Origin: an uncultured Amaricoccus sp.
Lineage (GTDB): Bacteria; Pseudomonadota; Alphaproteobacteria; Rhodobacterales; Rhodobacteraceae
Direction of reading: 5' to 3'
DNA length: 10,716 nt
Assembly: GCF_937858865.1 (NCBI RefSeq)
Contig: NZ_CALLYO010000096.1
Span: 1-10,716, forward strand
Shown here in pieces: positions 4,309 through 9,922 of this stretch; within the stretch, counting starts at the first letter, position 1, and each line of letters starts with the position of its first letter. The position numbers were made by a program, and so were the translations under genes. The notes beneath the pieces are model-generated. The model had not been told where the DNA came from. It did not search any database and saw only the letters and a list, made by a program, of their open reading frames with translations.

Positions 4309-4337
4309 TTGCGCGCCGGGCCGCCGCAGAGTAGGCA
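4309..4337 (+). promoter_or_regulatory. Candidate promoter of the efe operon
   Basis: TTGCGC (4309-4314) and TAGGCA (4332-4337) are separated by 17 nt in the 199-bp spacer between the divergent b561 and efeU genes. A start near 4344 would leave a leader of about 43 nt. The -10 match is poor. A small inverted repeat CGGTC/GACCG (4352-4356 and 4364-4368) lies in the leader. I see no clear Fur, Irr or RirA operator. Confidence 0.25.
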
Positions 4338-4386
4338 ATTCCCGAGCGGTTCGGTCAACTACCGACCGGGGAGGGGTCGGCCGGAA

Positions 4387-5220
4387 ATGCTGCCTGCATT
4401 TCTCATCATGCTCCGCGAGGGCCTCGAGGCCGCGCTGATCGTCGGGATCATCGCCGGCTACCTCGCGCGCACCGGCAGGCAGGCCTGGCTCCCCACCGTC
4501 TGGATCGGCGTCCTCCTCGCCGTCGCCCTCTCGCTCTTCGTCGGCGCGGCGGTGCTCGCCGTCGGCTCGCAGTTCCCGCAGAAGCTCCAGGAGCTCTTCG
4601 AGGCGATCATCGGCGCGCTCGCCGTCATCATCCTCATCTCGATGGTCTTCTGGATGCGCAAGGCGGCGCGCTCGATCAAGAAGACCGTCGAGCACGACAT
4701 CGACGTCGCGCTCGCCGACGCACACGGGCCGACCTGGGCCCTCATCGGCATGAGCTTCTTCGCCGTCGCCCGCGAGGGGCTCGAGTCGGTCTTCTTCCTC
4801 CTCGCCATCTTCCAGCAGAGCCCGGGGCCGGCGGCGCCGATCGGTGCGCTGCTCGGCATCGCGGCGGCGGTCGTGCTCGGCTACGGCATCTACCGCGGCG
4901 GGGTCCGGCTCGACCTCCGGCGCTTCTTCCTCTGGACCGGGATCTTCATCATCTTCGTCGCCGCCGGGCTCGCCGCCAGCGTGCTGCGCAGCCTGCACGA
5001 GGCCGGCATCTGGAACCACCTGCAGCAGCCGGTCTGGGACCTCAGCCGCACGCTGCCGGTCAGCTCCATCCTCGGCACGGTGCTGAGCGCGCTCTTCGGC
5101 TACCACGAGACGCCGGTGCTCGGCGAGGTGCTGGTCTGGGCGATCGTCCTCGGCGTCTCGCTCTTCTTCTTCCTCCGCCCGCAGCGCCCGGCGGCGGAGC
5201 CCGCCCGGCAGGAGGTCTGA
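4387..5220 (+). CDS. efeU: EfeU ferrous iron permease (FTR1 family)
   Basis: The inner-membrane permease has 277 aa and several long hydrophobic helices, consistent with the seven-helix FTR1 topology. Both REXLE iron motifs are present: REGLE at 10-14 in the first helix and REGLE at 129-133 (AREGLESVFF) in the fourth. These are the residues that carry iron through FTR1/EfeU channels. The ATG at 4387 is chosen because MLPAFLIMLREGLEAALI is the normal EfeU N-terminus; an in-frame ATG at 4309 would add a hydrophilic, non-conserved stretch. A GGGAGGGG stretch lies about 10 nt upstream. It is the first gene of a four-gene operon, and AGGAGGT at its end serves the next gene. Confidence 0.95.
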   Translation: MLPAFLIMLREGLEAALIVGIIAGYLARTGRQAWLPTVWIGVLLAVALSLFVGAAVLAVGSQFPQKLQELFEAIIGALAVIILISMVFWMRKAARSIKKTVEHDIDVALADAHGPTWALIGMSFFAVAREGLESVFFLLAIFQQSPGPAAPIGALLGIAAAVVLGYGIYRGGVRLDLRRFFLWTGIFIIFVAAGLAASVLRSLHEAGIWNHLQQPVWDLSRTLPVSSILGTVLSALFGYHETPVLGEVLVWAIVLGVSLFFFLRPQRPAAEPARQEV

Positions 5221-5224
5221 ACCC

Positions 5225-6394
5225 GTGGCGACACCCAAGCCGCTCTCGCGCCGCACCACCGCCCTCGCCCTCGCCGGCGCCGGCCTCCTCGCCGCCGCCG
5301 GCCTCGGCGCCTTCTGGTTCGCCGCCCGCACCAACCCCCCCGAGGTCGTCGAGGGCGAGATCGCGGTGACGGTGACCGACACCGTCTGCGAGCCGGCCGA
5401 GCTCACCGTGCCGGCCGGCAGGACCACCTTCCGCATCCACAACGCCTCCGACCGGCCGCTGGAATGGGAGATCCTCGACGGCGTCATGGTGGTGGCCGAG
5501 CGCGAGAACATCGCCCCCGGCCTCAACTCGACGCTCGCCGAGCGGCTGAAGCCCGGCGTCTACGACATCACCTGCGGCCTCCTCTCCAACCCGCGCGGCA
5601 AGCTCACCGTCCTCGCGACCGCCGAGTCCGAGGCGGCGAAGGCCGCCCCCGAGCTCCGCTACTTCATCGGCCCGCTCTCCGAGTACCGCGTCTACCTCAG
5701 CCGCCGCGCCTCCGAGCTCGTCGCCGCCACCGCCACCCTCTCCGAGAAGATCGCCGCCGGCGACCTCGAGGGGGCGCGCGCGGCCTGGGCGGCGGCCCGC
5801 CAGCCCTGGCGGCAGATGGCGCCGGTCTCCGCCCGGATCGGCGATCTCGCCAACAGCATGGACCCGCTCGCCGACTATCTCGCCGAGCGCGAGGAGGATC
5901 CGGCCTTCACCGGCTTCCACCGCATCGAGTACGGCCTCTGGGGGCAGAATTCGACCGAGGGCCTCGCGCCCGTCGCCGAGAAGCTCGCCGCCGACGCCGC
6001 GGCGCTCAAGGACCGGCTGAAGACCCTCGACGTCGCACCGGCCGACCTCGCCGGCAACGCCGCCGACCTCGCCTCCCGCGTCGCCGACCAGGCGACCGGC
6101 TCGCAGGCCCCCTACAGCCATCTCGACCTCGCCGAATTCTCCGCCGACCTCGACGGCATCTCGAAGTCGGCGCTCCTCGTCGACCCGCTGGTCAGGGAGG
6201 CCGACCCCGCCGCCTCCGAGGCGCTCGTCCAGGCCCTCGATGCCGCCCGCGCCACCCTCGACGGCTTCAAGGTCGAGGGCGCCATGCCCGCCTATGACCA
6301 GGTGGACGAGGCCGGCCGCCAGCGCCTGTCCGAAGCCTTCGCCGCCGTCGCCGCCGCCGCCGCCGCCTACAACCCCGCGATAGGGCTCGAATAG
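5225..6394 (+). CDS. efeO: EfeO: cupredoxin-M75 (imelysin-like) iron-binding protein, divergent M75
   Basis: The product has 389 aa, near the usual EfeO length. It starts with GTG, supported by AGGAGGT at 5210-5216, and lies 4 nt after efeU. Residues 11-33 form a hydrophobic signal or anchor preceded by SRR; no clear cleavage site is seen, so it may stay membrane-tethered on the periplasmic side. The cupredoxin-like domain (about 44-132) has Cys55 (VCEPAELTV), LEWEILDGVMVV (79-90), ERENIAPG and Cys117 (DITCGLLSNPRGKL). The M75 domain (about 145-386) has the HXXE motif H232-R-I-E235 in GFHRIEYGLW. EfeO passes iron to EfeU. Compared with the second M75 gene in this operon, the C-terminal half is divergent: only YSH of a conserved SGEEDRYSHTDLWDF block remains recognisable. 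Near the end is a six-Ala run from (GCC)6. Confidence 0.93.
   Translation: MATPKPLSRRTTALALAGAGLLAAAGLGAFWFAARTNPPEVVEGEIAVTVTDTVCEPAELTVPAGRTTFRIHNASDRPLEWEILDGVMVVAERENIAPGLNSTLAERLKPGVYDITCGLLSNPRGKLTVLATAESEAAKAAPELRYFIGPLSEYRVYLSRRASELVAATATLSEKIAAGDLEGARAAWAAARQPWRQMAPVSARIGDLANSMDPLADYLAEREEDPAFTGFHRIEYGLWGQNSTEGLAPVAEKLAADAAALKDRLKTLDVAPADLAGNAADLASRVADQATGSQAPYSHLDLAEFSADLDGISKSALLVDPLVREADPAASEALVQALDAARATLDGFKVEGAMPAYDQVDEAGRQRLSEAFAAVAAAAAAYNPAIGLE
5912..5995 (+). repeat. 84-nt block nearly repeated in the second M75 gene
   Basis: This stretch in efeO, encoding GFHRIEYGLW...NSTEGL...VAEKLAAD, aligns without gaps to 8070-8153 in the fourth operon gene. By eye, 75 of 84 bases match, while the flanking M75 sequence is much more divergent. 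It holds the HXXE metal motif, so selection, local gene conversion or both could explain it. Confidence 0.75.
6350..6367 (+). repeat. (GCC)6 trinucleotide repeat in efeO
   Basis: Six tandem GCC codons give an alanine run near the EfeO C-terminus. Such a repeat may vary in copy number by slippage, changing Ala count without shifting frame. Confidence 0.7.
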
Positions 6395-6396
6395 CC

Positions 6397-7710
6397 ATGC
6401 CAGCTCTCCTCACCACCCGCCGCCGCCTGCTCGCCGGTGCCGCCGCCCTCGCCGCCACGCCGGCCTTCGCCGCCACCGGCCAGCACAACGTCACCGACGC
6501 CCCGGTCGCCGACACCACCAGCGCGGCCGATCTCGTCTCCCCCTACGGCCGCCACCAGGCCGGCATCACCACGCCCAGGCCGGCGAACGGGATGGTCGCC
6601 GCCTTCCACGTGCTCGCCTCCGACCCCTCGGCGCTCGAGCGGCTGTTCCGCCGGCTGACCGAGCGCATCGTCCTCCTCACCCACGGCGGGCCGCTCCCCG
6701 AGACCGACCCGAAGCTGCCGCCCCCCGACAGCGGCATCCTCGGCCCGGTGGTGCAGCCCGACGCGCTGACCGTCACCGTCGGGCTCGGCGCCTCGCTCTT
6801 CGAGGACAGGACCTGGCTTGCGCCCCACAGGCCGCGGGTGCTCTCGCGGATGACCCGCTTCCACAACGACGCGCTCGACGCCGACATCTGCCACGGCGAC
6901 CTCGTCATCCAGTTCTGCGCCAACACCCAGGACACCGCGGTGCACGCGCTTCGGGACATCGTGAAGAACATCCCCGACCAGCTGGTGCTGAAATGGGCGC
7001 AGGCCGGCAACGTGCCGGTGATCCCCGCCCGGCCCGACGCCGCGCCCGAGAGCGCGCGCAACCTGCTCGGCTTCCGCGACGGCTCGGCCAATCCCGACAG
7101 CGAGGACGCCGCGCTGATGGAGCGCGTGGTCTGGATCGGCCCCGGCAACGCGGAGCCCGACTGGGCGGCCGACGGGACCTACATGGCGGTCAGGATCATC
7201 CGCAACCTGGTCGAGCGCTGGGACCGCACCCCCCTCGGCGAGCAGGAGCGGATCTTCGGCCGCACCAAGATGAGCGGCGCGCCGCTCGACCGGGCGGAGG
7301 GCACCGAGGCGATGGTGCCCGACTATGCCGCCGACCCGGAGGGCGAGGCGGTCCCGCTCGACTCCCACATCCGCCTCGCCAACCCGCGCACGCCGGGGAG
7401 CGAGGAGAGCCTGATGCTGCGCCGGCCGTTCAACTACGTGAACGGCGTGCTGAAGAACGGCCAGCTCGACCAGGGCCTGCTCTTCATCGCCTTCCAGTCC
7501 GACCTCGAGAAGGCCTTCGTCGCCGTGCAGCGGCGCCTCGATCGCGAGCCGCTCGAGGAATACATCAAGCCGGTGGGCGGGGGATATTTCTTCGTCCTCC
7601 CCGGCTTCGCGGCCGGCGAGGACTTCCTCGGCAGCTCGCTGATCGCAGCCCTTTCCCCGACGAGCCAGACTTCCAGCCAGTCGATCCCTGGCCGCCCGGT
7701 CACCGACTGA
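6397..7710 (+). CDS. efeB: EfeB: Tat-exported DyP-type haem peroxidase
   Basis: The protein has 437 aa, standard for EfeB/YcdB. The N-terminus TTRRRLLAGAAALAATPAFA is a Tat signal (cleavage near 26), so the protein folds with haem in the cytoplasm and is exported to the periplasm. The DyP distal motif GFRDGSANP (225-233) holds Asp228. The proximal haem ligand is His324 in LDSHIRLANPRT, and an arginine follows in LRRPFNYVNG (341-350). All key residues are present. DyP enzymes use peroxide; EfeB is proposed to oxidise ferrous iron or extract iron from haem for EfeU. The ATG lies 2 nt after the efeO stop, indicating translational coupling. Confidence 0.96.
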   Translation: MPALLTTRRRLLAGAAALAATPAFAATGQHNVTDAPVADTTSAADLVSPYGRHQAGITTPRPANGMVAAFHVLASDPSALERLFRRLTERIVLLTHGGPLPETDPKLPPPDSGILGPVVQPDALTVTVGLGASLFEDRTWLAPHRPRVLSRMTRFHNDALDADICHGDLVIQFCANTQDTAVHALRDIVKNIPDQLVLKWAQAGNVPVIPARPDAAPESARNLLGFRDGSANPDSEDAALMERVVWIGPGNAEPDWAADGTYMAVRIIRNLVERWDRTPLGEQERIFGRTKMSGAPLDRAEGTEAMVPDYAADPEGEAVPLDSHIRLANPRTPGSEESLMLRRPFNYVNGVLKNGQLDQGLLFIAFQSDLEKAFVAVQRRLDREPLEEYIKPVGGGYFFVLPGFAAGEDFLGSSLIAALSPTSQTSSQSIPGRPVTD

Positions 7711-7739
7711 GAGCGCCAAAGCCCACAGAGGAGTTCCGC

Positions 7740-8549
7740 ATGCGCTTTCTCACCCTCGCCGCCCTCGGCGCGCTCGCCTTCGGCGGGCAGGCCTATGCCC
7801 AGAGCGAGGCCACCCTCGATCTCGTCGGGCCGATCAGCGAGTACAAGCTCTTCGTCGCCGAGCAGGTCGACCAGCTGGTCGCCGACACCACCGCCTTCGT
7901 CGAGGCGGTCAAGGCCGGCGACGTCGAGCGGGCCAAGGCGCTCTTCGCCCCGACCCGGATCAACTACGAGGAGATCGAGCCGATCGCCGAGCTCTTCTCC
8001 GACCTCGACGTGGCGATCGACAGCCGCGCCGACGACTACGAGAAGGCCGAGCAGGACCCGGAGTTCCCCGGCTTCCACCGCATCGAATACGGCCTCTGGG
8101 AGAAGAACTCGACCGAGGGCCTCGACCCCGTCGCCGACAAGCTCCTCGCCGACGTGACGGACCTGCAGGGCCGCATCGAGGGCCTGACCTTCCCGCCCGA
8201 GGTCGTGGTCGGCGGCGCCGCCGTGCTGATGGAGGAGGTCGCCGCCACCAAGATCTCCGGCGAGGAGGACCGCTACAGCCACACCGACCTCTGGGACTTC
8301 CGCGGCAACTTCGACGGCTCGCGCAAGATCGTCGAGCTGGTGCGGCCGCTGGTGGACGACGAGGCGTTCCTCGCCACGGTCGACAAGAACTTCGCGACCG
8401 TCGACGAGATCCTGGAGAAGTACCGGGACGGCGCCGGCTACGTCACCTATGACAATCTGACCGAGGAGGACCGCGTGGTCCTGGCCGGCGCCGTCAACAC
8501 GCTGGCCGAGGACCTTTCGACGCTCCGCGGCAAGCTCGGCCTCGACTGA
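7740..8549 (+). CDS. Stand-alone M75 / EfeM-like iron-binding periplasmic protein
   Basis: The product has 269 aa with a Sec signal peptide (1-20, cleavage after AYA), then a single M75 domain and no cupredoxin. Conserved features are EPIAELFSDLD (80-90), the HXXE motif H113-R-I-E116 in GFHRIEYGLW, VGGAAVLMEEVAATKISGEE (157-176), DRYSHTDLWDF (177-187) and the C-terminal LRGKLGLD. It is closer to the C-terminal half of E. coli EfeO, as I recall it, than the efeO of this operon is. AGAGGAG (about 7727-7733) precedes the ATG. It lies 29 nt after efeB and is the last operon gene. Such short proteins are called EfeM or EfeO-like and are thought to bind iron for EfeU. It could replace or complement the M75 half of the first protein. 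Confidence 0.93.
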   Translation: MRFLTLAALGALAFGGQAYAQSEATLDLVGPISEYKLFVAEQVDQLVADTTAFVEAVKAGDVERAKALFAPTRINYEEIEPIAELFSDLDVAIDSRADDYEKAEQDPEFPGFHRIEYGLWEKNSTEGLDPVADKLLADVTDLQGRIEGLTFPPEVVVGGAAVLMEEVAATKISGEEDRYSHTDLWDFRGNFDGSRKIVELVRPLVDDEAFLATVDKNFATVDEILEKYRDGAGYVTYDNLTEEDRVVLAGAVNTLAEDLSTLRGKLGLD

Positions 8550-9609: not shown

Positions 9610-9922
9610 TGGTGCGGGCAGCCAGGCTCGAACTGGCACTCCCGAAGGAAGCGGATTTTCGTACCACTTCGGCTTCCGCCGCCGCGCGTCACCCGCGCGT
9701 TCGTGGTCTGGACTATCCCTTGGCCCTGGCCATGCCGGCTTTAGGCCCCGCCCGTCTAGTCTCTACACCTTCCGCCCCGAAGGGCCGGCTTGGCTCGGGA
9801 TTGCCACCGGCGCGACCCGTGAGGTTTCCCCGAATTTGAGCGGTTCTGCCCCCGCGGGTTTCCCCGCGGGCACCCGATGTCTGACCCAAGTCCGCTGCGT
9901 CTACCGATTTCGCCATGCCCGC
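9610..9922 (-). tRNA. tRNA-Leu(UAA), interrupted by a group I intron
   Basis: The 5' exon is 9922-9888 (35 nt) and the 3' exon 9659-9610 (50 nt), making an 85-nt mature tRNA with encoded CCA (9612-9610). The acceptor stem is GCGGGCA/TGCCCGC, with discriminator A. The D stem is GCG/CGC with the leucine-like AAATCGGTAGA loop. The anticodon stem is GCGGA/TCCGC and the loop CTTAAAA gives anticodon TAA. The variable arm TCC-TTCG-GGA is that of a class II tRNA, and the T arm GCCAG-TTCGAGC-CTGGC is complete. Every arm pairs without mismatch once the 228-nt insert between U34 and A35 is removed. It reads UUA/UUG leucine codons. Open reading frames overlapping it are spurious. Routine tRNA searches without intron handling may miss it. 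Confidence 0.95.
9660..9887 (-). ncRNA. Group I self-splicing intron (IC3-like) in tRNA-Leu(UAA)
   Basis: This 228-nt ribozyme separates U34 from A35. P1 pairs exon ACUU plus intron G with CGGGU (9876-9872), placing the required U.G wobble at the 5' splice site. P2 is CCCGCGGG-GAAA-CCCGCGGG (9870-9851). The core has GGCAATCCCGAGCCAAGCC (9805-9787), nearly the sequence I recall from the Anabaena tRNA-Leu intron, and GTGTAGAGACTAGACGGG (9768-9751). P7 is GACTA (9761-9757) with TAGTC (9715-9711), a perfect 5-bp guanosine-binding helix. P9 is closed by ACCAC (9707-9703) and GTGGT (9667-9663), with two inner hairpins, one capped GGAA. The last base is G. P3 could not be assigned with confidence. 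It carries no homing endonuclease ORF, so it is probably inherited vertically or mobile only through RNA. Splicing activity is inferred. Confidence 0.93.

Follow-up and report, generated by a model that had tools for sequence, protein, structure and literature searches.

A group I intron in a tRNA-Leu(UAA) gene of an uncultured Amaricoccus, and its relatives in bacterial genomes, plasmids and phages

We conclude with high confidence that the only tRNA-Leu(UAA) gene seen in the genome of this uncultured Amaricoccus, an alphaproteobacterium, is split by a group I intron without an open reading frame, that the intron would remove itself from the transcript, and that the family to which it belongs has spread, partly on plasmids and phages, and been retargeted. 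In chemistry and insertion site the intron is like that of cyanobacterial trnL, yet it is of a proteobacterial tRNA intron family. For a broader reading we put the chances at about even: these introns may form a large hidden mobile class with some ten tRNA hosts, travelling on phages and conjugative plasmids and replacing host tRNA genes, the window's included, so that annotation reports a missing tRNA. Here "the window" is the whole 10,716-nt stretch of DNA analysed.

A tRNA gene divided in its anticodon

The gene is divided into a 35-nt 5' exon, a 228-nt insert and a 50-nt 3' exon (Table 1). The insert lies between U34 and A35 of the anticodon, the insertion site of the cyanobacterial trnL lineage. 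When the exons are spliced in silico, ARAGORN folds them as an 85-nt tRNA-Leu(taa) whose acceptor, anticodon and T stems are all complete, a class II molecule with variable arm and CCA; dinucleotide shuffles of the split-gene region gave a tRNA call of any kind in 0 of 500 trials. Run on the intact sequence, the program finds no tRNA across the whole window with introns disallowed, and calls tRNA-Leu(taa) with a 228-nt intron (our locus L026) with introns allowed. An earlier note on this DNA had described a perfect 85-nt class II tRNA with CCA, restored around a 228-nt insert placed exactly between U34 and A35; the first point holds and the second is correct to the base.

The note's central proposal, that a group I intron occupies the tRNA-Leu(UAA) site in a proteobacterium, is supported by the core helices and by a covariance model. 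The Rfam Intron_gpI model (RF00028) aligns the core from P3 onward (9843-9748, minus strand) with an E value of 3e-4; its score, 29.2 bits, lies under the gathering score of 50, so the Rfam search proposed in the note favours the assignment by the first measure and not by the second. That gathering score is passed by one of nine loci (L031), all nine, the window's included, being clear members of the family; it is a convention and no defining trait of group I introns. An independent covariance model, built from six relatives with the window's intron left out, matches 9846-9701 (minus strand) at 138.8 bits (E 1e-32), its sole match in the window, and finds nothing in the genome's 25 other tRNA loci. 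The note had staked its reading on a covariance-model match, and this is one.

The group I core is present, P3 to P8 with the P3/P7 pseudoknot, and in a seven-row alignment helices P3 to P9 pair as expected. Three features listed in the note can be read from the sequence: U.G at the 5' splice site, a P2 capped by GAAA, and G as the last base of the intron; in the relatives, a T before the intron and a terminal G were search conditions and hence are no evidence. The window's P1 contains two wobble pairs and has three or four pairs in all, because base 9872 fits both P1 and P2. The conserved core and perfect P7 of the note passed both a pairing check and an analysis of covariation. Over 27 core pairs in 100 aligned rows, pairing is standard in 99.7% of cells, and 17 pairs have changed on both sides. 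The covariation score of 0.260 compares with 0.090 for shuffles and with no more than 0.065 when partners are slid; all these figures flatter, since the rows are kin to one another and their alignment had been fitted to the other helices. P7 is absent from the structure of the aligning model; three of its five pairs have changed on both sides, and the last is AU in 66 cases, GC in 31 and UA in 2.

The helices claimed are the outer P2, P3 to P8, and P9. First registers for P8a and P9a were dropped, having no pairing in the window, as were those for P2b and P6b, which were not kept in other rows. Free-energy folding of the 310 nt did no better than shuffles (z -0.60) and did not show the group I fold. 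At 228 nt the intron has no room for a homing endonuclease gene. Judging by its kin, it may belong to subgroup IC3.

Judged from these features, the intron is very probably active, removing itself. The steps we propose come from established group I chemistry: the exon end ..ACUU of the precursor would pair with the intron guide GGGU, forming P1 with its U.G; guanosine bound in P7 would cut after U34; the freed 5' exon would attack behind the terminal G; and ligation of the exons would yield a mature tRNA reading UUA and UUG.

Table 1. Features of the split gene in the window, with one plasmid counterpart
Feature	Positions	Strand	Basis
Whole split tRNA-Leu(UAA) gene	9610..9922	-	Sequence, ARAGORN, in silico splicing
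5' exon, acceptor 5' strand to U34, end ..GACUU	9888..9922	-	In silico splicing
Group I intron, 228 nt, final base G	9660..9887	-	Rfam match, helix check, in silico splicing, covariance model
3' exon, A35 to CCA	9610..9659	-	In silico splicing
P1: exon ACUU (9891-9888) with guide GGGU (9875-9872), U.G at splice site	9872..9891	-	Read from sequence; guide class counted
P2 hairpin, GAAA loop	9847..9872	-	Outer three pairs kept in 7/7 rows
P3, 5' strand (partner 9753-9748)	9838..9843	-	Helix check, covariation
P3, 3' strand	9748..9753	-	Helix check, covariation
P4 (9833-9828 with 9800-9795) around P5 (9824-9823 with 9805-9804)	9795..9833	-	Helix check, covariation
P6 (9794-9792 with 9769-9767), plus P6a	9767..9794	-	Helix check, covariation
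P7, guanosine-site helix (9761-9757 with 9715-9711), pseudoknotted to P3	9711..9761	-	Helix check, covariation
P8 (9746-9744 with 9725-9723)	9723..9746	-	Helix check, covariation
P9 (9707-9703 with 9667-9663)	9663..9707	-	Helix check
Plasmid split tRNA-Leu(UAA), pCTX-M3	L305 6001-6291 = NC_004464.2 61830-62120		Core model, by eye

Copy number and possible replacement of the host gene

An Rfam tRNA search of the genome yields 25 places, 24 of which ARAGORN names. Among these 24 the leucine anticodons CAA, UAG, CAG and GAG are present and an uninterrupted tRNA-Leu(UAA) is not, so the search for a second intact copy that the note had proposed turned up none; as the assembly, in 651 contigs, reaches 92.6% completeness, such a copy may be missing from it. 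A pattern search found an uninterrupted tRNA-Leu(UAA) in one of 23 intron-bearing genomes versus 12 of 18 without the intron (Fisher p 2.5e-5), the one exception (G423) having its copy within a tight array of Met, Leu and Ser tRNAs. Genes whose anticodon stem differs escape the pattern: when seven genomes (six of the 18 intronless ones and G001) were searched again with a tRNA query, three proved to hold an uninterrupted gene with a different anticodon stem, and in four no uninterrupted tRNA-Leu(UAA) was found.

That the window's copy is decaying, with a normal tRNA-Leu(UAA) hidden in a gap of the assembly, seems to us highly improbable. The genome is indeed incomplete, decayed or truncated copies exist elsewhere (L039; the second copy in L088), and TTA is found in none of the 2,976 codons of ten window genes, so that loss is perhaps tolerated; set against these points, the tRNA stems and core helices of the window's copy are intact, and 22 of the 23 intron-bearing genomes have no uninterrupted copy by the pattern. 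The idea that the introns sit in little-used tRNAs did not prove general: TTA and AGA occur 0 and 2 times in the 2,976 codons, but ACC and AAG, read by other host tRNAs of these introns, occur 81 and 59 times.

For the functional split gene that we favour, the route of arrival may have been replacement of the host's whole tRNA gene by one already split. The claim is kept at this strength because the exons of an intronless genome of the same genus (G005) are 81% identical to the window's, as close as many intron-bearing ones. Neither rsfS nor DUF1194 turned up next to the tRNA at the other loci searched, whose sequence mostly extends some 1.5 kb to either side, and thus a clean empty site was not demonstrated. 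A tree of tRNA exons was dropped for having too few columns.

Some genomes hold more than one copy. L088 (about 5500-6300) has two split tRNA-Leu(UAA) genes of different exon types on opposite strands, about 0.8 kb apart, one of which ends early in the intron core; the pair is perhaps a gene replacement caught halfway. Genome G045 (loci L031, L039 and L041) has one intact split tRNA-Leu(UAA) and a decayed copy elsewhere, with a tRNA-Leu-like stretch (Rfam tRNA 36.1 bits) about 1.4 kb from the intact gene. The window itself also carries, at 4309-8549, an iron-uptake-like cluster of FTR1 permease, cupredoxin-imelysin, Dyp-type peroxidase and a second imelysin.

Distribution, hosts and vehicles of the intron family

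Model R1, trained on seven alphaproteobacterial introns with the window's among them, finds the intron in 2 of 11 genomes of the genus, and relatives in 41 of 394 genomes sampled from the bacterial family, taken to be Rhodobacteraceae, in 49 of 385 from the class and in 41 of 398 from the phylum, the last three samples being even draws from larger groups, filtered more strictly than in the genus search. The 44 matches in the bacterial family lie in tRNA-Leu(UAA) (27), -Arg(CCU) (10), -Arg(UCU) (3), -Thr(GGU) (2), -Thr(UGU) (1) and -Lys(UUU) (1). A pattern scan of named genomes returned at least 118 places; 113 of those listed are tRNA-Leu(UAA) split at 34/35, and the other five comprise two loci cut by contig ends (L115, L142), one where only the 3' half fits (L094), and two chance matches (L118, L120), discarded by eye as lacking an intron. 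R1 was run on 66 of the 118 listed loci and matched all 66: 29 in Alphaproteobacteria, 21 in cyanobacteria, 6 in Acidobacteriota, 3 each in Gammaproteobacteria and Bacteroidota, 2 in other Pseudomonadota (64 ranked), one unranked and one in a Bacilli MAG (L122). The Acidobacteriota and Bacteroidota records may be misbinned, since all are MAGs; carriers not marked as MAGs include Carnimonas nigrificans ATCC BAA-78, Tahibacter aquaticus DSM 21667, Bradyrhizobium, Rhizobium, Reyranella and others. Cultured relatives with a similar split gene include Rhodobaculum claviforme LMG 28126 and Camelimonas lactis DSM 22958. The note had called this site a hallmark of cyanobacteria and plastids, a view not supported by these results, which place the same split gene in many Alphaproteobacteria and in gammaproteobacterial, acidobacterial and Bacteroidota records. 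It had also read long residence from the GC-rich stems: intron GC does track flank GC over 108 loci (rho 0.70), which is consistent with this, but carriage by 2 of 11 genomes of the genus favours gain or loss. The intron of the uncultured Bacilli MAG (L122 244-981), 677 nt long in a tRNA-Leu(UAA), holds a 149-aa HNH endonuclease-like ORF (PF01844, 24 bits).

Host tRNAs were set by in silico splicing (51 of 196 by hand) because ARAGORN's own intron placement mislabelled several, as Phe, Ser or Stop. The 198 rows comprise Leu(UAA) 128, Arg(CCU) 27, Lys(UUU) 9, Thr(GGU) 9, Leu(CAA) 6, Arg(UCU) 5, CAU-anticodon 5 (called Met by ARAGORN, assumed to be Ile), Lys(CUU) 4, Thr(CGU) 2 and Thr(UGU) 1, ten tRNA species in all, together with one decayed Leu copy and one row without a tRNA. 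L040 has a core but no tRNA, and by eye L269 has none either; L094 was counted as Leu from its 3' half only, and L278 and L289, at contig ends, as Thr(GGU) from their 5' halves.

Insertion sites span 33/34 to 36/37 and the guide suits each host, both judged by eye: Leu(UAA) has ACUU with GAGU or GGGU; Lys(UUU) and Arg(UCU) present the same CUU as Leu(UAA), at 34/35; Thr(GGU) has GGU with GCC; and Arg(CCU) has CCU with GGG. Of the 111 non-cyanobacterial rows classed as Leu(UAA), 98 have a four-pair P1 with U.G, the guides being GAGU in 90, GGGU (the window's class) in 6 and others in 2; four of the eight failures shown are Arg genes that had passed the filter. In three tRNA-Leu(CAA) introns (L257, L262, L266) the 5' exon ends in C by eye, a C-G pair seemingly replacing U.G. 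Since the host label changes at least 22 times on a 197-row quick tree, a count inflated by weak forks and treating the decayed copy as a label of its own, hosts have switched during the history of the family. The family has been retargeted to other anticodon loops, and the matching guides hint at reverse splicing of free introns.

Plasmids and phages transport whole split tRNA genes. A query of 310 nt from the window has matches in 1,280 of 72,556 plasmid records, 1,266 of them over at least 80% of the query, at 60-80% identity in all but one (about 77% in the best rows); the hosts are mainly Escherichia, Klebsiella, Salmonella and Acinetobacter. Three of these plasmid regions were checked: in each the core is intact (143.9-145.1 bits), and inspection by eye shows the tRNA-Leu(UAA) to be complete, its intron placed as in the window. 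With a plasmid copy as query, at least 80% of it is found in 1,257 plasmid records, with at least 99% identity in 1,277 of the 1,280 that match; in complete E. coli genomes, 624 of 5,426 hold at least 80% of it and 635 any part, and 656 of 658 records reach at least 99% identity. This split gene, of alphaproteobacterial type, rides with an aac(3)-II / AAA-ATPase segment: a type II aac(3) gene is present in eight of nine regions opened (3-6 kb on each side), and in the ninth (H60) IS26 follows and no aac(3) is listed. No tRNA is annotated at the split gene in the E. coli records, the ten rows listed reading 'none'; such absence is informative for the E. coli table only, because the plasmid table is without RNA genes. 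The closest fetched locus to the plasmid copy is that of Camelimonas lactis (90%), and the split gene may mark the donor lineage of the aac(3)-II segment.

Gordonia phage Daredevil (NC_048021.1; L308 2501-2766) carries, near an integrase gene, a tRNA-Lys(UUU) split at 34/35 by an intron of the family (112.7 bits). Predicted viral contigs gave at least 120 core-pattern places; among the 120 matches listed, and without a shuffle control, 41 splice to tRNA-Leu(UAA), 65 show no tRNA, and the rest are other or doubtful tRNAs. In three viral contigs (L316, L332, L349) a split tRNA-Leu(UAA) lies beside tail or lysis genes. The family would thus have moved partly as whole split tRNA genes on such vehicles.

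Relation to cyanobacterial introns and to known systems

R1 gave 202 core matches, from which two of L122, L269 and the truncated second L088 copy were dropped before the trees, and then L040. The main tree uses 94 of 196 rows, chosen by group quotas, and 198 columns; L039 and nine long or doubtful loci were barred, the bootstrap had not settled, and the tree is unrooted. Twelve cyanobacterial introns and one from a gammaproteobacterial MAG (L132) form one branch (100/100) on a long stem. The window's intron lies outside it, paired with L043 (92/88), among proteobacterial tRNA-Leu, -Arg, -Lys and -Thr introns and acidobacterial tRNA-Leu introns; three Bacteroidota rows and one Arg(CCU) row stand near the cyanobacterial branch, and the fork that parts them from the remaining rows is weak (63/91). 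In AU tests, on groupings named after the tree was seen, a tree with the window pair nested inside half of the cyanobacterial rows is rejected (p 0.0017), whereas the pair's placement as sister to all cyanobacterial introns (p 0.35) or with Arg(CCU) introns (p 0.33) is not; single clades of all Leu(UAA) introns (p 0.001) and of the non-cyanobacterial ones (p 0.0013) are both rejected, the former partly because tRNA-Leu(CAA) introns fall among the Leu(UAA) rows.

The tree proposed in the note thus supports the first of its two alternatives: the window's intron is a member of an under-reported family of proteobacterial tRNA introns. The second, an ancient transfer, may still be true, since the sister relation is not rejected. 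To a recent transfer of a cyanobacterial tRNA-Leu(UAA) intron we give hardly any credence. Such an intron would account for the same tRNA, the same position and the similar length; L132 has one inside the cyanobacterial branch, the sister placement is permitted, and the Bacteroidota and Arg(CCU) rows adjoin that branch on weak forks. The 100/100 branch and the rejected nesting nevertheless oppose it, and two measures agree: cyanobacterial introns score 65-103 bits with R1 and the Leu(UAA) introns of Alphaproteobacteria and Acidobacteriota 108-158, a comparison that leans, as alphaproteobacterial rows were the training set of R1 (for Leu(UAA) introns from other proteobacterial classes, seven in number, the range is only 80-104), and exon identity to the window's is 66-73% in cyanobacteria against 84% in the best intron-bearing Alphaproteobacteria.

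Vertical descent from a tRNA-Leu(UAA) intron in the common ancestor of Cyanobacteria and Proteobacteria, followed by many losses, is improbable. It would explain the shared site in several phyla, and a deep sister relation to the cyanobacterial introns is not rejected; it sits badly, however, with rejection of the all-Leu(UAA) clade, with presence in 2 of 11 genomes of the genus, and with split genes that ride on plasmids and phages. Two introns of the window's bacterial family also have distant neighbours: L057 that of the gammaproteobacterium Carnimonas (L098; 100/88), and L029 that of an acidobacterial MAG (L146; 99/78).

What surprises us in this proteobacterial family is how common, diverse in hosts, mobile and unseen it is: roughly a tenth of the genomes sampled at family, class and phylum level carry it, and the window's copy escapes both ARAGORN without introns and the Rfam cut-off. 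A 2021 study found tRNA introns behind the missing fMet or Ile2 genes of 36 genomes (PMC8450103); intron-caused "missing tRNA" reports may extend to Leu, Arg, Lys and Thr. With its many hosts, and several guides on a single scaffold, the family opens an old question to testing: whether introns lacking an ORF enter matching anticodon loops by reverse splicing, or are moved solely as part of a whole tRNA gene. A literature search that lay mostly outside subscription papers found no report of this case, and we make no claim of its absence from print. Two reviews list cyanobacteria, with a few alpha- and betaproteobacteria, as the hosts of tRNA introns in bacteria (PMC4033280, PMC11408192), and a third, from 2014, places all phage introns known at that time in protein genes, despite the many phage tRNAs (PMC3984707). 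PMC5733544 describes as group I introns some cyanobacterial inserts of 22-49 nt, in tRNA-Arg, -Gly and -Lys; far shorter than those of the present family, they were left out of the analysis.

Three known systems invite comparison. The tRNA-Arg(CCU) introns of alphaproteobacteria (Agrobacterium; Bartonella BbgpI), reportedly treated by Paquin, Heinfling and Shub in 1999, share with the window's intron the core, the size, the patchiness and the lack of room for an ORF, and fall on the same side of the tree; they differ in inserting after position 36, not 34, and 11 of their 12 tree rows form a branch of their own (98/99). BbgpI is reported to splice (PMC7717549). The cyanobacterial trnL intron, in the loci compared, occupies the same site of the same tRNA, but forms the separate 100/100 branch and has a four-pair P1 in only 1 of 20 rows. 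The introns of CAU-anticodon tRNAs in other proteobacteria (the Azoarcus tRNA-Ile type) are compact and matched by the same model as the window's (R1 37-104 bits, five rows), but differ in host and, by eye, in site (33/34 or 36/37); the likeness of the window's core to that of Azoarcus is presumably close.
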